Shown here piece after piece: positions 4,048 through 32,654 of a stretch of 32,682 bases of DNA (the first letter of the stretch is position 1; every line of letters starts with the position of its first letter). The notes below the pieces were generated by a model. The model had not been told where the DNA came from and did not search any database. It saw only the letters and a list, made by a program, of their open reading frames with translations. The stretch spans positions 1 to 32,682 of the forward strand of contig JAHFLV010000007.1 in assembly GCA_023264565.1 (NCBI GenBank), given 5' to 3'. Source of the stretch: Candidatus Zambryskiibacteriota bacterium. Lineage in GTDB: Bacteria; Patescibacteriota; Minisyncoccia; Phycocordibacterales; DATGWK01. The position numbers were made by a program, and so were the translations under genes.

Positions 4048-4075
4048 AAAAACCCGCGGTTCACGCGGGTTTTTG
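4048..4075. terminator. Bidirectional terminator between dnaJ and the minus-strand gene
   Basis: AACCCGCG (4051-4058), a 5-nt loop, CGCGGGTT (4064-4071), flanked by an A-run on the left and a T-run on the right. It works on paper in both directions, ending dnaJ on the plus strand and the 4098-4598 gene on the minus strand. Confidence 0.9.
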
Positions 4076-4097
4076 CTTGTAGAAACGTGGAGGTTGC

Positions 4098-4598
4098 TTA
4101 AGCCGACTCTTTCTGCTCCTTCCAGGATGGGCGGTATGGGAACATATCCATACAGCTCCATCTTTTGTAGTGTGCCGCGTGTGCAGTGCACAGATACACA
4201 TTACACACTGAGCCCCAGATATTTATCCACACGATCTCGGCTTGTTCGTGAGAACATTCATCAACCATGCACCTTTTTCGAGGTGAAAGCCGCGCCTTCA
4301 GAACTGCCACGGTACGCCACATGGTGCCAAAGTGCTTGTTTGCGTAGTACTCTGGGTCCCAGTCTGGTTCACGACGAAGTTCTCTTGCCGGGCACATATA
4401 GTATTCCCAGTTTGAATTCCTTTCTCTTTCGTCATGCGCAGAATAGAACATCAGACTGTCTCTTCGATCAAACCGCACGAGGATTTGGGGTGGTCTCCAG
4501 AAACGAAGTTGCACCTCTACGACGAGCCCTTGCTTGTTGTGGAAAATCGAACCGCGATCGATGTCCCTCACGATGTCACCTGGCATCAATATGGCCAT
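4098..4598 (-). CDS. Unknown protein with a C-terminal Cys/His cluster
   Basis: I do not recognise this 166-residue protein. The N-terminal half (GDIVRDIDRG...GLVVEVQ, then QILVRFDRRDSL) looks like a small beta-barrel, KOW/SH3-like fold. The C-terminal half has Cys110, Cys115, Cys132, Cys137, His140 and His143 (CMVDEC ... CNVYLCTAHAAH), a likely zinc site, and the protein is rich in Trp, Tyr and Arg. It is probably real: GGAG lies 7 nt before the ATG, a consensus TTGACA/TACTTT promoter lies upstream, and a shared terminator sits after its stop. The antisense ORF 4073-4600 lacks such signals. It may bind nucleic acid or protein; no function is claimed. It is monocistronic, convergent with dnaJ and divergent from trpS. 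Confidence 0.75.
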   Translation of the reverse strand: MAILMPGDIVRDIDRGSIFHNKQGLVVEVQLRFWRPPQILVRFDRRDSLMFYSAHDERERNSNWEYYMCPARELRREPDWDPEYYANKHFGTMWRTVAVLKARLSPRKRCMVDECSHEQAEIVWINIWGSVCNVYLCTAHAAHYKRWSCMDMFPYRPSWKEQKESA

Positions 4599-4642
4599 AG
4601 CTGTACTCCAGAGAATGAGATTTTTAGAACGATTCTGCCCTA

Positions 4643-4671
4643 AAAGTACTCTTCGATATGAGATATGTCAA
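4643..4671 (-). promoter_or_regulatory. Promoter of the 4098-4598 gene
   Basis: On the minus strand TTGACA (4671-4666), a 17-bp spacer, then TACTTT (4648-4643). The consensus -35 and ideal spacing make this a confident promoter. Its -35 overlaps the weak -35 region of the opposing trpS promoter. Confidence 0.75.
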
Positions 4672-17988: not shown

Positions 17989-18018
17989 AAAAAAAAACAG
18001 CCCCGCTTTCAGGACTGT
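17989..18018 (-). terminator. Terminator of the DUF1653-like gene
   Basis: On the minus strand a hairpin ACAG-T-CC / GG-G-CTGT with an 8-nt loop is followed at once by nine T. It lies 28 nt after the stop of the 18046-18402 gene. The remaining gap (17736-17791 and 17895-17988) is AT-rich with nothing else supported. Confidence 0.85.
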
Positions 18019-18045
18019 CTTGTTTTCATTTTTCCGCCCGATCTT

Positions 18046-18402
18046 TTAAGGATACATCCGCTGACTGAGCCAGTGTAAGTCCGTAATGGTTCCAGAATCT
18101 GTCACGGGAATAAATCGCGGACCCTTGTAGTCGCCCTTATCGACATCCCCCATCCAGTTATCAAGAGGCCGTGACCAATGAAAATTATTGCCACTTTTTT
18201 TGCTAGCCTCAACGAGTTCTGAATTGTACAAAGGTCGATAGAGGACCGTGATTCGATGTTCATGAGGACAATCGTCCTCTGTATTAACTCCGATCCCTAC
18301 AACTTCGTAGGTGTAGTTGTTGGTTGGTCCAGCTGGTTCATGTTTGTAGTGACGCCAGAAACCGAGCTTGGGAACATTTATTGGAAGTTTCAGTGGGTTC
18401 AT
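18046..18402 (-). CDS. DUF1653-like protein
   Basis: A 118-residue protein matching the DUF1653 pattern by eye: GFWRHYK near the start, YEVVGIGVNTED, ITVLYRPLYN, a WSRPLDNWMGDV segment and GPRFIPV. That family binds an unknown ligand through a small beta fold and often sits beside unrelated genes. This copy carries insertions (PAGPTNN; SELVEASKKSGNN) that make it longer than the 60-70-residue core. The ATG at 18402 is preceded by AAAGGGA, a modest Shine-Dalgarno. It is monocistronic, with its own terminator 28 nt downstream and another gene's terminator upstream. Confidence 0.7.
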   Translation of the reverse strand: MNPLKLPINVPKLGFWRHYKHEPAGPTNNYTYEVVGIGVNTEDDCPHEHRITVLYRPLYNSELVEASKKSGNNFHWSRPLDNWMGDVDKGDYKGPRFIPVTDSGTITDLHWLSQRMYP

Positions 18403-20168: not shown

Positions 20169-20537
20169 TTATTTTTGACCAGCCGTGAGCCCCCTACAGT
20201 TTGCAGCGGGTGTTAGACCCGCCTTTTCGGCCGCTTCCCTATTTTCAAAATAGACTCGGTTCTTTTCGGCAATGGTTTTGGCACCAGGACAGTCAAGCAA
20301 ATGATATTTCTTGCCAGTTTTAGAAGCGACGACTTGGCCGTTTTTTACCGCCATAGTTTCTTCATTTTCTGATGTTTTTTGGTCTACAATACTGGTCGAA
20401 TCAATCTTCAGGGGTGTCTTTTTGCTCGTAAAAGCATACAATTTGAGGCTTCCGAAGAGGATCATGAGGCCTAATGCCACACATATAGAAATCAAGACAA
20501 TAAGATTGATCTTTTTAGCGTCCTGGGGTATACTCAT
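20169..20537 (-). CDS. Membrane-anchored protein with Ada-like metal-binding domain
   Basis: A 122-residue protein: one N-terminal transmembrane helix (about 10-36), a polar linker, then a domain VVASKTGKKYHLLDCPGAK...NRVYFENREAAEKAGLTPAANC. Together with the final CRGL this matches the small metal-binding fold found at the N-terminus of Ada, with a single Cys in the CPGAK motif and one in AANC. Such TM-plus-Ada-like proteins are common in Parcubacteria. The domain faces outside if the helix is a signal anchor. TATAAT lies 6 nt before the ATG, so the transcript is probably leaderless. First gene of a three-gene unit. Confidence 0.72.
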   Translation of the reverse strand: MSIPQDAKKINLIVLISICVALGLMILFGSLKLYAFTSKKTPLKIDSTSIVDQKTSENEETMAVKNGQVVASKTGKKYHLLDCPGAKTIAEKNRVYFENREAAEKAGLTPAANCRGLTAGQK

Positions 20538-20543
20538 TCGACA

Positions 20544-20549
20544 ATTATA
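20544..20549 (-). promoter_or_regulatory. Extended -10 promoter of the 20537-19277 unit
   Basis: Minus-strand TGA-TATAAT, a consensus extended -10, ends 6 nt before the ATG at 20537. No clear -35 is seen, as expected for an extended -10 promoter. Transcription would begin at or next to the start codon. Confidence 0.65.
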
Positions 20550-20621
20550 TCAGAAAAGATATAGAGAAATTGAAGAATTTTTAAAGGAATTTAGCGAATT
20601 TTAGACAAAATTTAGAACAAT

Positions 20622-20957: not shown

Positions 20958-20985
20958 TTGACAAATGGTATTTTTACGATATTGT
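20958..20985 (+). promoter_or_regulatory. Promoter of the zinc-ribbon membrane gene
   Basis: TTGACA (20958-20963), 16-bp spacer, TATTGT (20980-20985), starting only 4 bp after the rpmA terminator. A strong Shine-Dalgarno AGGGGG lies 4-9 nt before the ATG at 21024. Confidence 0.75.
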
Positions 20986-21023
20986 TTTTTCAGAAATGAA
21001 ATGAGATTGAACTAGGGGGAAAC

Positions 21024-21380
21024 ATGAAGAAGTCACGATGGAAGTTTGCCTTTGGTTTTGTTTGGTTTTTAATCACTACGGGCTTCTGGCCAAACATTAC
21101 ACTTATCACCGGACTAAGGTTGTTGGGGCATTTCCTGTTCCCTAACGTCGACAGTATCAAAAACCCATATGTATTTGTGGCAATTCTGGCAGTTTGCATT
21201 CTGGGTCTTTGGAGAACTTGGAAGCAACTTCAAAACACTCTTCAAGAAGACAGAACAAACTACCGGCAGCGCTATGGTCAATGTGTGGGATGCGGGTACG
21301 ATCTTCGCGGAATTGAGCCGTCAATAATTTGTGATCAAGGATATCGTCGAAGATGTCCTGAGTGCAGCAAAATCGCCTAA
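21024..21380 (+). CDS. Small membrane protein with C-terminal zinc ribbon
   Basis: A 118-residue protein with two hydrophobic helices (about 8-24 and 49-63), a basic coiled linker (WRTWKQLQNTLQEDRTNYRQ) and a C-terminal zinc ribbon CVGCGYDLRG...CPECS. This exact ribbon style is familiar from many planctomycete proteins, so lateral acquisition is possible. It is a self-contained cassette: promoter TTGACA-16-TATTGT, Shine-Dalgarno AGGGGG, and a terminator whose loop holds the TAA stop. Arg codons are more mixed than in neighbouring genes. Function unknown. Confidence 0.78.
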   Translation: MKKSRWKFAFGFVWFLITTGFWPNITLITGLRLLGHFLFPNVDSIKNPYVFVAILAVCILGLWRTWKQLQNTLQEDRTNYRQRYGQCVGCGYDLRGIEPSIICDQGYRRRCPECSKIA

Positions 21381-21394
21381 CGAGGCGATTTTTT
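21369..21394. terminator. Bidirectional terminator containing the stop codon
   Basis: AAAATCGCC-TAACGA-GGCGATTTT: the TAA stop of the 21024-21380 gene is the first half of the loop. It also reads correctly on the minus strand, 22 nt after the rplI stop, so the two convergent genes share it. Confidence 0.92.
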
Positions 21395-26918: not shown

Positions 26919-26947
26919 TTGACTTAAGGTAAATTTAATGATACTGT
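26919..26947 (+). promoter_or_regulatory. Promoter of cassette gene 26982
   Basis: TTGACT (26919-26924), 17-bp spacer, TACTGT (26942-26947), followed by a Shine-Dalgarno AGGGGG at 26971-26976, five bases before the ATG. GAAGC near 26954 could pair with GCTTC just before the ATG and mask the Shine-Dalgarno. Confidence 0.7.
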
Positions 26948-26981
26948 TTACCCAGAAGCATTTTAAAGAAAGGGGGCTTCG

Positions 26982-27302
26982 ATGTTGAATCAGCTGATGA
27001 GCTATCTACATCCCTTGATCTCAACGATCATTGTGTTTGTAGTTCTCATGGCCATTCTAAGCTATGGTTTCGCCTATATGTTTGGCGGCCAGAGCTACGC
27101 GAATCGTGTTCGCGTGAAGCTCATGGACTTCTTTATCTGGAGTCCACTCAAATGGCTCCGGAGAAAGTTGATCTACGAACCGGCCAAGTATCTCAAGAAA
27201 AAGGCCAAGGCGTGGGCAACCAGTCTACTTCGGTGGGCTGGAAGAGGGATCATGGCATTGCTTCGTCGATTTTGGGTCAAGGTCAGGGCTTGTTGGCCCT
27301 GA
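26982..27302 (+). CDS. Basic, Trp-rich single-span membrane protein
   Basis: A 106-residue protein with one transmembrane helix (about 13-34, ISTIIVFVVLMAILSYGFAYMF). A strongly basic, Trp-rich tail follows (KLMDFFIWSPLKWLRRKLIY, YLKKKAKAWATSLLRWAGRG), which looks like amphipathic helices lying on the membrane. I do not recognise the family. The cassette has its own promoter, Shine-Dalgarno AGGGGG and a perfect terminator in which the last codons and the TGA stop lie. Membrane disruption, toxin-like action or membrane shaping are possible readings; none is shown. Confidence 0.72.
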   Translation: MLNQLMSYLHPLISTIIVFVVLMAILSYGFAYMFGGQSYANRVRVKLMDFFIWSPLKWLRRKLIYEPAKYLKKKAKAWATSLLRWAGRGIMALLRRFWVKVRACWP

Positions 27303-27311
27303 CCTTTTTTT
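27279..27311 (+). terminator. Terminator overlapping the end of gene 26982
   Basis: AAGGTCAGGGC (27279-27289), 6-nt loop TTGTTG, GCCCTGACCTT (27296-27306), then T-run to 27311. The 11-bp stem is perfect and the TGA stop (27300-27302) lies in its right arm. Confidence 0.95.
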
Positions 27312-27312
27312 A

Positions 27313-27341
27313 TTGACTTACATTATTTACTGATTTACAAT
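27313..27341 (+). promoter_or_regulatory. Promoter of cassette 27377
   Basis: TTGACT (27313-27318), 17-bp spacer, TACAAT (27336-27341). It begins two bases after the T-run of the preceding terminator, so cassettes are packed end to end. A perfect AAGGAGG lies at 27364-27370. Confidence 0.75.
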
Positions 27342-27376
27342 CCTCTTTGGTCATTTTACAAAGAAGGAGGCATTGA

Positions 27377-27544
27377 TTGGCACGAACCAGAAGATCGTTT
27401 AGTCCAAGCAAGGGTGTCGCAAAGGCTCGGAGGTACCAGGAAGACTTGCGGGCATCCCGCGGTTTCCACTGCTCCACTCTTGCTCCACCGACTCATGGAC
27501 CAAGCAGACGGAAGTTTCCTCGCCGACTTGCGGGCACACATTAG
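27377..27544 (+). CDS. 55-residue basic protein, or a structured RNA
   Basis: Not in the ORF track. TTG at 27377 lies 6 nt after a perfect AAGGAGG and opens a 55-codon frame to TAG at 27542. The product is very basic (MARTRRSFSPSKGVAKARRY ... SRRKFPRRLAGTH) with one Cys. It has its own promoter and a perfect terminator 28 nt after the stop. The DNA is also rich in internal pairings and holds a 12-base direct repeat GACTTGCGGGCA (27443, 27525), so an RNA function is a real alternative. The perfect Shine-Dalgarno favours translation. No known family. Confidence 0.5.
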   Translation: MARTRRSFSPSKGVAKARRYQEDLRASRGFHCSTLAPPTHGPSRRKFPRRLAGTH

Positions 27545-27572
27545 TAACCCCACGTAACTCGACCAACCCCAT

Positions 27573-27600
27573 GCTCACGCGACACCGCGTGAGCTTTTTT
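27573..27600 (+). terminator. Terminator of cassette 27377
   Basis: GCTCACGC-GACACC-GCGTGAGC, a perfect 8-bp stem followed by six T. The segment GCGACACC overlapping its left arm and loop is the exact complement of GGTGTCGC at 27413-27420, giving a possible competing long-range pairing. Confidence 0.95.
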
Positions 27601-27625
27601 ATTCTCCTAGATCTTTTTATATCTA

Positions 27626-27653
27626 TTGACATATAATTTTAAAATTGTAAAAT
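27626..27653 (+). promoter_or_regulatory. Promoter of cassette gene 27713
   Basis: TTGACA (27626-27631), 16-bp spacer, TAAAAT (27648-27653), followed by AAGGAGG at 27700-27706. Confidence 0.75.
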
Positions 27654-27712
27654 CTTCCAAGAATTGCTCACTGAAATACTGCTAAACAAAAGAACACAGA
27701 AGGAGGCTCATT

Positions 27713-28600
27713 TTGGAACAGAACGGCGCGGAAAAGAAAAGTCCGCTTATCGGACTCGTTGGAGTAGTAGGAATCTGGGTTACGGCGGGACTCGCCCTGC
27801 CATTTGTAAACGTGCGGAAGGAGTTTACACCCGAACAGCTGATGGTGTTTCGTGGTTTCTTACCTGCCCTGATCGCGTTTGTGTTGCTTCGGGGCAAGAT
27901 CGGTAAGGTGGACAAATACACCTGGTTGATCGGCCTCACACTTCCCCTTGCAACCCTCGGCTTGTTTGAGGGTATTCGCAACTGGGGCGTTGGTCCGACA
28001 TTAATTGTCGTCACGGGGACGCCGGTTGTAAACTTCTTCATTGGAAGATTTCTGAAGAGACCGGTGTCGGATATGACGATCACGAGTCTGATAATCATGA
28101 TTTGCGGAGTTGCTCTCGCCTGCAAGGGCGGACACTTCAACTGGCCGGGGTTCCTCTGGAGCGTCGAGGGAACGATTGCGAACGGTATTCTGTACGAACT
28201 ATTCGCCAGGGCAAAAACCAAGCCGCTACAAAAATGCTTCTTTTCATGCTTCGGCATGGGTGCTCTTGGTCTGCTACTCAGTTTCGCTGATGCCACACCC
28301 TGGGTAGCAGAAACCTTCACCCTACCAATGACCCTTCAATTAGTTACCTTTGCTTTCGTTGGCGGTTTCCTGTACTGGATTGCCAACCAGGCCGCCTTCA
28401 AGCATCTGGAGACTATGCGGGCGAGCGTTCTCGCGCAAGGAGAGACACCCGCGGCAATGATCGGCGCCTACCTTCTGCTCGGAGAAAAACTGAGTATGAA
28501 TCAGTGGGTCGGAACAATCATCGCGCTTGCGGCCGCAGTCTCTTTGGTCTACGCTACAGCCAAAGAAGCAAAAGAACCTGCAGCAGTAGCTACAACATAA
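27713..28600 (+). CDS. EamA/DMT-family permease (second copy)
   Basis: A 295-residue polytopic protein with ten hydrophobic helices in two EamA repeats (about 12-140 and 148-285). The second repeat ends with the typical GETPAAMIGAYLLLGEKLSMNQWVG. It starts with TTG, six bases after a perfect AAGGAGG, which fixes the start. It shares little with the DMT permease at 15769. Its base content is higher than that of neighbouring housekeeping genes (31 G+C of 60 in 27841-27900, versus 18 of 60 in 12601-12660 in gltX, by hand count). Promoter and terminator are its own, so it looks like an acquired or separately regulated unit. Substrate unknown. Confidence 0.85.
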   Translation: MEQNGAEKKSPLIGLVGVVGIWVTAGLALPFVNVRKEFTPEQLMVFRGFLPALIAFVLLRGKIGKVDKYTWLIGLTLPLATLGLFEGIRNWGVGPTLIVVTGTPVVNFFIGRFLKRPVSDMTITSLIIMICGVALACKGGHFNWPGFLWSVEGTIANGILYELFARAKTKPLQKCFFSCFGMGALGLLLSFADATPWVAETFTLPMTLQLVTFAFVGGFLYWIANQAAFKHLETMRASVLAQGETPAAMIGAYLLLGEKLSMNQWVGTIIALAAAVSLVYATAKEAKEPAAVATT

Positions 28601-28612
28601 ACACAACAATGT

Positions 28613-28638
28613 GCCGCCCTGGCTTTCGGGGCGGTTTT
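28613..28638 (+). terminator. Terminator of gene 27713
   Basis: CCGCCC (28614-28619), 9-nt loop, GGGCGG (28629-28634), then TTTTCTTTT. It lies 13 nt after the permease stop. Confidence 0.88.
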
Positions 28639-28650
28639 CTTTTGTTTACA

Positions 28651-28792
28651 AAAGTCTCCACTCATTTGAAGGAGACTTTCGGAACCCGAGCAATGACCTC
28701 TTTGTGAAGTAAAAGTATGCGAGGGTGAGAGGGAGCAAAAAACCACCGGAAGGTGGTTTTTATGCGTGCTCCTGAAAATGAGTGGAGACTTT
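28651..28792. repeat. 142-bp element bounded by 17-bp perfect inverted repeats
   Basis: AAAGTCTCCACTCATTT (28651-28667) is the exact reverse complement of 28776-28792. A third partial copy GGAGACTTT (28671-28679) can pair with the first nine bases of the left arm, giving an alternative local hairpin. In the centre, the hairpin at 28738-28761 extends by GGAGC...GCTCC. The right arm runs into the stop codon of rplU. No ORF lies inside. Nature unknown: MITE-like element, regulatory RNA or processing site. Confidence 0.7.
28738..28761. terminator. Terminator of rplU, inside the inverted-repeat element
   Basis: AAAAACCACC-GGAA-GGTGGTTTTT, a perfect 10-bp stem with T-runs on both strands. On the minus strand it lies 30 nt after the rplU stop. 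Confidence 0.88.
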
Positions 28793-29225: not shown

Positions 29226-29253
29226 TTGACTTTTTATAAATTAGTGCTATTAT
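29226..29253 (+). promoter_or_regulatory. Promoter of the 23-residue peptide gene
   Basis: TTGACT (29226-29231), 16-bp spacer, TATTAT (29248-29253). The stretch TAGTGCTATTATAAATACAG matches the promoter at 31381 in nearly all positions. The leader can fold either as GTTTCCA/TGGAAAC (29273/29302) or as CCACGA/TCGTGG (29288/29299); the two are mutually exclusive. Confidence 0.75.
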
Positions 29254-29328
29254 AAATACAGAAGCTGGTTATGTTTCCAGCCCTGATCCACGAAGGAATC
29301 GTGGAAACTCCATTTGTTGGGAGATGTC

Positions 29329-29400
29329 ATGAACAAGTCTCGAGTCGCGTTCTATGCCTTTCTGGCAATCATGCTCGGCTTCGCTCTGGCCTCGATCTAA
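29329..29400 (+). CDS. 23-residue membrane peptide
   Basis: Too short for the ORF track. ATG at 29329, five bases after GGGAG, to TAA at 29398-29400. It encodes MNKSRVAFYAFLAIMLGFAL plus ASI, a single short transmembrane helix with a basic N-terminus. The cassette is complete: strong promoter, structured leader, Shine-Dalgarno, and a strong terminator 23 nt after the stop. Its size and build resemble type I toxin peptides and small regulatory membrane peptides; which, if either, is unknown. The overlapping ORF at 29271 has no Shine-Dalgarno and is rejected. Confidence 0.6.
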   Translation: MNKSRVAFYAFLAIMLGFALASI

Positions 29401-29421
29401 TCCATCAAACTGAAGATTCGA

Positions 29422-29453
29422 ACACCGCCCGCACTCTGTGCTGGCGGTTTTTT
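29422..29453 (+). terminator. Terminator of the 23-residue peptide gene
   Basis: ACCGCC-C-GCAC-TCT-GTGC-T-GGCGGT (29424-29448) followed by TTTTT. A long stem with one small internal loop. Confidence 0.92.
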
Positions 29454-29716: not shown

Positions 29717-30823
29717 TTATTCTTCCTGGTCAGTATCGGGTTTTGCGACAATCACAGACTCGAGTCCGGCTGAATTTCCAGCGATTTTCAAAACGTCTTT
29801 ATCAATTTTTAAAAGTTCTTTTTGAGCACGGTTGTAGTGGTTTACCGTTGTACCAAGAGATGAGCCAAGCGACGACATGTATTGGTCGTATGCAGCAATA
29901 TGTTTACCTAAATCCTCTACCCTCTTTCGAATCTCTTTAGCTGATTCTTCGATTTGTAGTGCCTTGAGACCCTGGAGAACGGTCTGGAGATATGCCAAGA
30001 AAGATGTTGGTGAGGTAATGATGACTCGGCGATCTTTGAAGGCGTATTCGATAAGGTCACGAGTATTCACTTTAACCGCACCAACCTGAGCGACCAGAAG
30101 GTCATAATAGATGGCTTCGTGCGGAATAAACATGAACGCAAAGTCCATAGTGTTTTCAGCTGGCTTTACGTACTTTGAAGTTTCATCGATGCGGTTTTTG
30201 AGATCGCGACGAAACGCGGTTTCGAGCTCTTCACGTCGAACTGGATCTTTTTCATCAACTAAACGATTGTAATTTTCGAGAGAAAACTTTGAGTCGATCG
30301 GAATGATTTTATCTTTTACAAAAACCACAGCGTCGACGATCGTGCCATCGTTGAACTCGTACTGCATTTGGTAGCTGCCGGTCGGCATCACGTTCTTCAA
30401 AAGGGTTTCCAAATAGTATTCACCCAAAATACCGCGTTGCTTTGGATTTTTCAAAATGTCCTGCAAAGACTGAAGCTGGTCAGCAAAAGACACAACTTGT
30501 TTGTTTGTTTCGTCGAGCTTAGTGAGCCCCATAGTGACATCGCGAATGAGCTTTGCGGATTCACCGAACTGATTTCGCATCGATTCGTTTTGGTTGCGCA
30601 TTGATTCACTCACCTGTCGGTTGGTCTCGCCCATTTTGGCATCGATAGTTTTTGAAAGTTCGTTAATATGCTGGAGCATGAGTGACATGGCTGGATCTGG
30701 CTTCCCCGCCAATTCATCTTCTGACTTTTTTGCATTACTAAGCCGTTGCATCAAAACCCACAGAAAACCAGCGTTTAATAAAACAATAATTGCGACGATT
30801 ATGATGACAGCGGTAGTAGACAT
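29717..30823 (-). CDS. rmuC: RmuC-family DNA recombination protein
   Basis: RmuC proteins limit recombination at inverted repeats and contain a nuclease-like core. The 368-residue protein has an N-terminal membrane helix (about 4-25), a coiled-coil region (about 50-120, ELSKTIDAKMGETNRQVSES) and the RmuC core. KQRGILGEYYLETLLKNVMP, IVDAVVFVKDKIIPIDSKF, MDFAFMFIPHEAIYYDLL and RRVIITSPTSFLAYLQTVLQGLKALQI are all family-typical. TATAAT ends 6 nt before the ATG, so the transcript is probably leaderless. The gene is divergent from the yqeY-like gene with only 47 bp between. Confidence 0.94.
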   Translation of the reverse strand: MSTTAVIIIVAIIVLLNAGFLWVLMQRLSNAKKSEDELAGKPDPAMSLMLQHINELSKTIDAKMGETNRQVSESMRNQNESMRNQFGESAKLIRDVTMGLTKLDETNKQVVSFADQLQSLQDILKNPKQRGILGEYYLETLLKNVMPTGSYQMQYEFNDGTIVDAVVFVKDKIIPIDSKFSLENYNRLVDEKDPVRREELETAFRRDLKNRIDETSKYVKPAENTMDFAFMFIPHEAIYYDLLVAQVGAVKVNTRDLIEYAFKDRRVIITSPTSFLAYLQTVLQGLKALQIEESAKEIRKRVEDLGKHIAAYDQYMSSLGSSLGTTVNHYNRAQKELLKIDKDVLKIAGNSAGLESVIVAKPDTDQEE

Positions 30824-30829
30824 GGGGCA

Positions 30830-30835
30830 ATTATA
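30830..30835 (-). promoter_or_regulatory. -10 box of rmuC
   Basis: Minus-strand TATAAT, 6 nt before the rmuC ATG, with no good -35. On the plus strand of the same 47-bp gap TACTAT lies 10 nt before the yqeY-like ATG, so the divergent promoters are very close. Confidence 0.5.
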
Positions 30836-30870
30836 CTACAGGGCGCGGCTTATGATACTATTTTCTCCAT

Positions 30871-31380: not shown

Positions 31381-31409
31381 TTGACAAATAGCATGAATAG
31401 TGCTATTAT
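31381..31409 (+). promoter_or_regulatory. Promoter of the GC-rich membrane gene
   Basis: TTGACA (31381-31386), 17-bp spacer, TATTAT (31404-31409). The leader has a perfect hairpin GTCACC-GTGTT-GGTGAC (31425-31441) and a Shine-Dalgarno AGGAG at 31458-31462, eight bases before the ATG. Confidence 0.82.
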
Positions 31410-31470
31410 ACAAACAGAAATAACGTCACCGTGTTGGTGACAAAACAGCACTTTTACAGGAGCTAGAAAA

Positions 31471-31893
31471 ATGAATCAGCGTGATTTTGTTAACCGTATC
31501 ATGGGCTTCATGACAGCAATCGTACTCATCGCAATTCTTGCTTTTGTGTTCACCCACATTGGGGGCAAGACCGTCAGCGTGGAGTATGTGAATCTGCCAT
31601 CGGCCCGGGCGTTCAGCCTGCAGGTGCCGACCATCCAGAGCGAGAATGCGGTCTGGGCAACGAACACACCCTTCAAGATGACCTACATCTTCCCAGACAA
31701 GTCGCATGCGATCTACCAGACACCCGACAACCAGCTCGTGGAAACCACGAACAAGCAGGTCATCGACCTGGTCAACCGCAACGAGTACTTCGTCATAAAC
31801 GAAGGGGCGTATCGTGGTCCTCACGGCCTGATGAAGCTCACCGAGCATGACATCGACTTCACCAAGGCCGACTACTACGCCGTCGGCCCGTAA
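31471..31893 (+). CDS. Membrane-anchored protein of unknown function, GC-rich
   Basis: A 140-residue protein with an N-terminal membrane helix (about 13-31, GFMTAIVLIAILAFVFTHI) and a soluble domain probably outside the cell (about 35-140). It has no Cys and no motif I recognise; TYIFPDKSHAIYQTPDNQLV and KLTEHDIDFTKADYYAVGP are its most distinctive parts. The coding region is clearly richer in G+C than its neighbours (39 of 60 in 31561-31620, hand count) and uses CTG, GTG, GTC and CGG codons that are rare in the housekeeping genes. It has its own promoter, structured leader, Shine-Dalgarno and terminator, so recent acquisition or special expression selection is likely. Confidence 0.75.
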   Translation: MNQRDFVNRIMGFMTAIVLIAILAFVFTHIGGKTVSVEYVNLPSARAFSLQVPTIQSENAVWATNTPFKMTYIFPDKSHAIYQTPDNQLVETTNKQVIDLVNRNEYFVINEGAYRGPHGLMKLTEHDIDFTKADYYAVGP

Positions 31894-31916
31894 ACTCGAA
31901 CGATATCGAGTACACC

Positions 31917-31947
31917 AAACACCTTGCGATAGCGCGGGGTGTTTTTT
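31917..31947 (+). terminator. Terminator of gene 31471
   Basis: AAACACC-T-TGCG-ATAG-CGCG-G-GGTGTTT (31917-31944) followed by T-run. A smaller hairpin ACTCG/CGAGT lies just after the stop codon. Confidence 0.9.
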
Positions 31948-31970: not shown

Positions 31971-32401
31971 CTACAACTTTTGTGCCGTAATAAAAAGCTT
32001 ATTAAAAGGAAATTCCATCCCACTTTTTGGTTCCCGTCTTTCAACTCTCATTATTCGAAAACCCGCATTCTCCAAATATTTTCTAATTTCAGCTTCAGTA
32101 AATAAATTAATGAACATTTTTACTTCCGGTTTATATACAACAGAAAAATATCCATCTCGATCCATTGACGTAATTGGTTCTTGTAATGCAAGGTATGCGT
32201 AGCCACCAATTTAAGCACCCGAGCAATTCCTTCAACCGACATCGTCACATCTTTTTCCGGAATATGAATCAGAGAATAATTTGCAAAAACACCATCAAAA
32301 CTTTTATCTGGGAAATCCAATTTGCGTAAATCCATTTGAATCATTTTGAGGTCGGGGTGTTGCAAACTACAGCCTCTTTTCTGGCTTTCTGAAAACTTCA
32401 A
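31971..32401 (-). pseudogene. Broken class I SAM-dependent methyltransferase
   Basis: Two frames on the minus strand are pieces of one methyltransferase. The first (32401 downwards) has MIQMDLRKLDFPDKSFDGVF, ANYSLIHIPE and GIARVLK, covering motifs II-IV. The second (ending at 31971) has FSVVYKPEVKMFINLFTEAE, IRKYLENAGFRIMRVERREP and the C-terminus. Adding one base in the A-run near 32209-32214 restores RVLK-IGGYAYLALQEP-ITSMDRDG, so a single-base loss caused the frameshift. The N-terminal SAM-binding motif I (GxGxG) is missing: homology begins right at the 3' end of tRNA-Glu. It is therefore both 5'-truncated and frameshifted. Confidence 0.8.
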
Positions 32402-32541: not shown

Positions 32542-32654
32542 AAACAAAGATAAGACATTTGAGAAATGAGTTTCCGGAGGCGCGTAGGCGCCGAGAGTAG
32601 CGAAAACCCAGCAGGGTTTATCGCGCTCATTTCGAGAATGTCTTATCTTTGTTT
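32542..32654. repeat. 113-bp palindromic element with 18-bp perfect inverted ends
   Basis: AAACAAAGATAAGACATT (32542-32559) is the exact reverse complement of 32637-32654. After four unpaired bases a further 7 bp pair (AAATGAG with CTCATTT). Inside are two hairpins: GGCGC-GTAG-GCGCC and AAACCC-AGCA-GGGTTT, the latter lengthened by GCG/CGC. No ORF is contained. It lies about 50 bp upstream of tRNA-Glu (on the tRNA strand). It could be a MITE-like element, a recombination site or a structured RNA. The last 28 bases of the window show nothing I can assign. Confidence 0.72.

Follow-up and report, generated by a model that had tools for sequence, protein, structure and literature searches.

What kind of genes are the short, self-contained units set among the housekeeping genes of this window (the whole stretch of 32,682 nucleotides analysed here, contig C13), and why do they carry strong Shine-Dalgarno (SD) sequences in a genome whose 16S rRNA cannot pair with them? 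A first-pass annotation had picked out six such units, three of them in tandem at 26919-28640. The window belongs to a draft genome of 580 kb (48 contigs, 92% complete), from which stretches amounting to 256 kb, about 44% of the total, were sampled; its placement in Patescibacteria comes from gene content and from the named relatives of the window's cassettes. Native (codon-typical) genes were called with a purpose-built codon model that leaves translation signals unused, and the nearest comparison genomes are order-level relatives, none from the genome's own family. A full cassette is defined as a monocistronic unit of promoter, leader, SD, ORF and terminator. Its layout comprises a sigma70-type promoter, mostly a (C/T)AGA motif 5-6 nt further on, a leader of 30-90 nt containing the SD, one ORF and an intrinsic terminator.

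The window contains eight cassette candidates, the six already listed and two more on the minus strand, and their neighbours are genes of the dnaX operon, a ribosomal protein gene and further housekeeping genes. Rfam finds one tRNA in the whole window and nothing else. The TTGAC(A/T)-N16/17-TANNNT promoters, strong SDs and terminators described for the six are all present, and two of the six do start with TTG. The first plus-strand cassette (20958..21392) has its promoter at 20958-20985, CAGA at 20991-20994 and the SD AGGGGG at 21014-21019; its ORF (21024-21380) encodes 118 aa with two transmembrane (TM) segments and a CxxC pair, has no Pfam match, and is served by a terminator at 21369-21392. 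The tandem group, also on the plus strand, opens with 26919..27306 (promoter 26919-26947, CAGA 26953-26956, SD AAGGGGG 26970-26976, terminator 27279-27306), whose ORF (26982-27302) encodes 106 aa with a TM segment and a basic tail. It continues with 27313..27594 (promoter 27313-27341, SD AAGGAGG 27364-27370, terminator 27573-27594), where the TTG-started ORF (27377-27544; 55 aa, basic) is without homology support and doubtful as a protein, and ends with 27626..28635 (promoter 27626-27653, SD AAGGAGG 27700-27706, terminator 28613-28635), where a TTG-started ORF (27713-28600) encodes a 295-aa EamA transporter (Pfam PF00892, 42.7 bits against a curated cutoff of 28.2). Two more plus-strand cassettes follow. 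One (29226..29448) combines a promoter at 29226-29253, CAGA at 29259-29262, a structured leader, the SD GGGAG at 29319-29323 and a terminator-like hairpin at 29424-29448 with a 23-aa ORF (29329-29400) that is without homology support; the other (31381..31944; promoter 31381-31409, CAGA 31415-31418, SD AGGAG 31458-31462, terminator 31917-31944) has an ORF (31471-31893) for 140 aa with one TM segment and a GC3 of 0.77, whose product gives a single weak match (60 relatives). The minus-strand cassette 4048..4671 has its promoter at 4671-4643, CAGA 5 nt after the -10 box, the SD GGAG, an ORF (4598-4098) for 166 aa with no family match, and a hairpin terminator at about 4073-4048. The second minus-strand candidate (17994..18402) has a terminator at 18021-17994, a weak SD (AAAGGG) and no strict TTGAC promoter; its ORF (18402-18046; 118 aa) belongs to DUF1653 (PF07866, 31.7 bits against a curated cutoff of 23.5).

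The description of the products as mostly small membrane or basic proteins fits several of those in the window, but not the genome at large, where other cassettes encode radical-SAM, OMP-decarboxylase-like, Nudix-like, HTH, lipoprotein-like and secreted repeat proteins. Given this mixture of functions, no single pathway is suggested. The product of a cassette at L010 9297-10562 (plus strand) is a secreted repeat protein of 421 aa, similar to PEP-CTERM/HAF-type proteins, and the DFNNDGDTDTDADIEAFF repeat at its C-terminal end is like repeats of Planctomycetota. Directly 3' of the rRNA region, from about 250-330 of L050 onward (plus strand), an SD-led ORF (AGGAGGAGGATCTATG) with a CAGA motif looks like one more cassette. 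Elsewhere in the window, a class I methyltransferase-like gene (31971-32401, minus strand) appears to be split into two overlapping ORFs, by a frameshift or as a pseudogene.

These units are far too frequent to be chance assemblies of signals. Outside typical genes, the 256 kb contain 14 full cassettes, compared with none in the reversed sequence and one in ten dinucleotide shuffles. As a guard against circularity, since cassettes were first sought only outside typical genes, the scan was repeated without that exclusion and returned 15 cassettes against one in the reversed sequence; one of the 15 is a typical gene with a weak promoter. Of 69 ORFs that lie outside typical genes and reach 100 aa or more, a set not chosen by SD, 24 have an SD. 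The cassettes also differ from host genes in composition, as horizontally acquired accessory genes do: their GC3 is 0.58 against 0.40 in native genes (p=1.8e-9, with the unfiltered scan in agreement), and they avoid host-favoured codons such as GAA, TTT, AAA and TAT. Both the signal scan, for which 256 kb were sampled, and the codon-usage comparison proposed in the first-pass annotation thus set the cassettes apart.

The native genes follow another format. ATG is the start codon in 167/175 codon-typical genes, and an SD of five bases or longer precedes 0 of 175-184, compared with 3.2% of random positions, in line with the earlier view that the housekeeping genes are ATG-started and mostly devoid of SDs. 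The same signals before housekeeping genes, the observation that would have counted against a separate class, were looked for, and SDs were found before 0/184. In many first genes, TATAAT-like -10 boxes peak about 5-9 nt before the ATG, the distance typical of leaderless transcripts, and the native genes are for the most part of this leaderless layout. Two minus-strand genes of the window illustrate the contrast, both without an SD: 20537-20169 (20169..20553), where TATAAT ends 6 nt before the ATG, and the rmuC-like gene 30823-29717 (29717..30838), where it lies 7 nt before the ATG. The leaderless -10 peak is present in pooled genomes lacking the anti-SD and absent from the anti-SD-bearing Patescibacteria genome G660; a second such genome, G502, has too few -10 boxes for a peak comparison. 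Over ten anti-SD-less genomes, 16/536 genes have an SD.

The 16S rRNA accounts for this format. In the genome itself the 16S tail reads GGAAGCTGCTCGTGGAATATTTCAATTTGAA, and CCTCC (anti-SD CCUCC) is gone after helix 45. CCUCC is likewise missing from all 30 order genomes among the matches listed (the window's own included) and from G151, G160 and G270, and a search pattern that includes the anti-SD matches 0/60 genomes, whereas one that leaves it out matches 35. The 16S gene of the genome is itself split between L031/L050 (contig C7; about 1-330) and L051 (C17), and the C17 match breaks off at model position 873 and resumes at 1228, perhaps because of inserts. Most genes are therefore read from SD-free messages because the ribosome has lost the matching sequence, and the cassettes bear a signal with which the host 16S cannot pair. 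Loss of the anti-SD is already known from some Patescibacteria (Campbellbacteria and Wolfebacteria, category iv; PMC10783764), and the present lineage shows both traits of the SD-scarce prokaryotes described there, a 16S tail without CCUCC and hardly any native SD genes. It differs in its distinct minority of strongly SD-led genes, which was not found described there. The open-access literature searched yielded no description of persistent SD cassettes in anti-SD-less genomes.

Cassette promoters also share a putative start-site motif. (C/T)AGA, or YAGA, follows the -10 hexamer at a distance of 5 or 6 nt in 12/16 cassette promoters and in 0/15 other strict promoters, the rRNA promoter among them (Fisher p=2e-5), with the classes sorted by hand and an automatic scan giving the same peak. 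Within order-wide pattern matches the motif gathers at offsets 5-7. The A of the ATG in leaderless genes lies at the same distance from the -10 box as the A of YAGA; most simply, a single polymerase would initiate at this A in either class of gene. The leaders have less in common: a shared structure was rejected, as only 2/8 fold clearly better than shuffles, and GTTCTTT (boxA-like, compare the boxA of rRNA antitermination), found in 8/76 leaders of order-wide matches against 0.5 in shuffles, was set aside as a class feature since it is not general in the genome itself.

The architecture extends beyond one genome. Full cassettes occur in 7/9 other anti-SD-less genomes sampled (the exceptions being G015 and G059) and in three more genomes, with zero reversed-control matches in each of these, although some single matches are doubtful (e.g. 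in L064, where a ribosomal protein has been given a false start). Across the first 60 order genomes, TTGACW-N40-70-AGGAGG-N4-8-DTG has 306 matches against 71 for the reversed pattern. Some genomes of one family (f45: G044, G115, G200) have 13-34 AGGAGG cassette matches where the control has 0-2. In 11/11 cassette-bearing genomes GC3 is higher in the cassettes than in the host genes (p=0.001), and the two correlate (rho 0.74, p=0.009); three of the 11 were scanned without excluding typical genes, so that their values include some chance matches. This tracking of the host implies long residence rather than constant fresh arrival.

Two families reveal how individual cassettes are distributed. Relatives of the EamA cassette, besides its own, occur in 3/297 order genomes and 3/380 phylum genomes, and a motif scan of 85,462 species, based on an alignment, yields nine loci, all those with a named phylum being Patescibacteria; a contig scan with one sequence finds nothing. 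One locus holds a decayed remnant of the gene. Each of the eight distinct intact copies, that of the window among them, has an SD, and a recognisable TTGAC promoter precedes most of them. The cassettes stand at unrelated positions in genomes of several families; their neighbours differ, with no synteny. EamA thus has the patchy, non-syntenic distribution of horizontally acquired accessory genes, and the phyletic spread that the first-pass annotation had wished to see compared proves uneven. Three EamA hosts have the anti-SD and four lack it, and on the gene tree, which is small and weakly supported, the four copies from hosts without it fall on one side (support 79/78), which suggests that the SD has been kept without an anti-SD. 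DUF1653 behaves differently. Its relatives occur in 27 other order genomes; four are cassettes complete with SD and terminator, and the others are SD-free and mostly host-like in composition. SD and terminator co-occur (p=0.003), and the two forms are interspersed on a likewise small and weakly supported tree. The same protein family thus comes in two formats of expression, and some copies look domesticated, with neither SD nor terminator and with a host-like composition.

Intergenic DNA also holds inverted repeats with long loops (arms 15-28 nt, loops 70-135 nt), at 28651-28792 and 32542-32654 of the window and at L004 5412-5559, L005 12793-12957, L005 19471-19621 and L006 3316-3421. That at 28651-28792 is directly 3' of the EamA cassette, and the EamA cassettes of L073 and L074 have comparable repeats after them. 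They are possibly REP-like elements; as recombination sites they were rejected, only 1 of the 8 in the sample being near a counted cassette.

The idea of a distinct expression class, acquired or accessory, is therefore borne out by the lack of SDs before 184 native genes, the GC3 shift, the patchy spread and the two states of DUF1653. In its best-supported version, which stands at about an even chance of being right, the cassettes are a horizontally circulating accessory class of single-gene units that keep the SD format within hosts that have abandoned it. Such self-contained units would move between Patescibacteria lineages. The housekeeping polymerase would start at the A of YAGA and produce leadered cassette mRNAs, so that core genes would give AUG-first messages and cassettes AGA-first, leadered ones. 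As the SD cannot pair with the 16S tail, ribosomes most likely locate the start codon of a cassette by internal initiation independent of an SD, which operon-internal native genes already need. The SD may persist because the units are adapted to, or arrive repeatedly from, a pool that includes anti-SD-bearing hosts. Neither an insertion event nor a mobile element is seen around the cassettes, and no donor outside Patescibacteria was identified.

Known portable genes resemble these units only in part. Phage morons are autonomous single-gene units with their own promoter and terminator and a divergent composition. The cassettes share this format and divergence, but they lie outside prophages, among housekeeping neighbours, and the tested proteins have no PHROG or viral-contig match; an origin from phages, plasmids or defence systems was rejected, as PHROG, PADLOC and five viral-contig scans were all empty. 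With integron gene cassettes they have in common the portable single-ORF unit, and even the tandem of three at 26919-28640. However, every unit is driven by a promoter of its own, most units lie dispersed one by one over contigs rather than arrayed behind a common promoter, no shared flanking repeat is seen, and the long inverted repeats are not common to them. With horizontally acquired accessory genes in general the cassettes share atypical codons, a patchy distribution and an absence of synteny, and they differ from these by their uniform single-gene format, their common start-site motif and a host unable to pair with the SD.

The persistence of the SD could also mean that it works. Some reader of AGGAGG other than the 16S tail, be it a protein, a small RNA or an interaction that stabilises the mRNA, might set the cassettes off from leaderless mRNAs and make them a true second translation class, a reading that is rather unlikely. 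All four EamA copies whose hosts lack the anti-SD retain an SD and group together, strong SDs stand on cassettes of host-like composition (e.g. L152, L158, L160), cassette GC3 tracks that of the host, and the YAGA motif is common to the class. However, AGGAGG has no known reader of this kind, the plain form of DUF1653 is maintained SD-free, operon-internal native genes are read without an SD, and support in the EamA tree is weak. That host-like copies retain the SD and that EamA copies from anti-SD-less hosts fall together leans towards a functional SD, whereas the SD-free DUF1653 copies and internal native genes lean away from it. Somewhat less probable is the alternative that the cassettes are recent imports from assorted SD-using bacteria, with decaying donor signals and a shared history of import rather than a class. 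Their atypical codons, patchy spread and decayed EamA copy would agree with this, as would the PEP-CTERM-like relationship of the HAF-repeat protein to other phyla, but EamA relatives are confined to Patescibacteria in the scan of 85,462 species, a common YAGA motif is unexpected from assorted donors, and the tracking of host GC3 speaks of residence. The wider proposition that anti-SD-less genomes keep, under selection, a class of SD-leadered mRNAs read by a factor other than 16S rRNA, or meant for the ribosomes of another cell, appears a shade more doubtful again; such a bacterium would run two translation-initiation formats, one for core and one for accessory genes.

A resident regulon, inherited vertically, evolving fast and expressed at special times such as attachment to a host cell, would explain the common promoter and start motif and the numerous small membrane and secreted products; it is improbable, as the EamA and DUF1653 cassettes are patchy and differently positioned, GC3 is unlike that of native genes, and the promoters are of ordinary sigma70 type. 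Much less probable still are units written for another cell, as DNA or mRNA passed on to the host of the symbiont, where ribosomes do have an anti-SD: a canonical promoter, SD and terminator in a genome unable to pair the SD would fit, but no delivery route or signal is seen, anti-SD-bearing Patescibacteria have cassettes too, and the products are of mixed range. Chimeric assembly, contamination or chance ORFs are a very remote possibility, since despite the 48-contig draft the eight candidates sit among typical genes of a single contig and other genomes show the same architecture, the single-contig G002 among them, with zero reversed controls.

Because the ribosomes of the lineage cannot pair with it, an SD before a gene serves as a ready label by which the accessory, patchy gene pool of these Patescibacteria is told from the core without a homology search. 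A testable question also follows, namely why strong SDs endure alongside promoter and terminator where the anti-SD is gone, and how the mRNAs that carry them are read.
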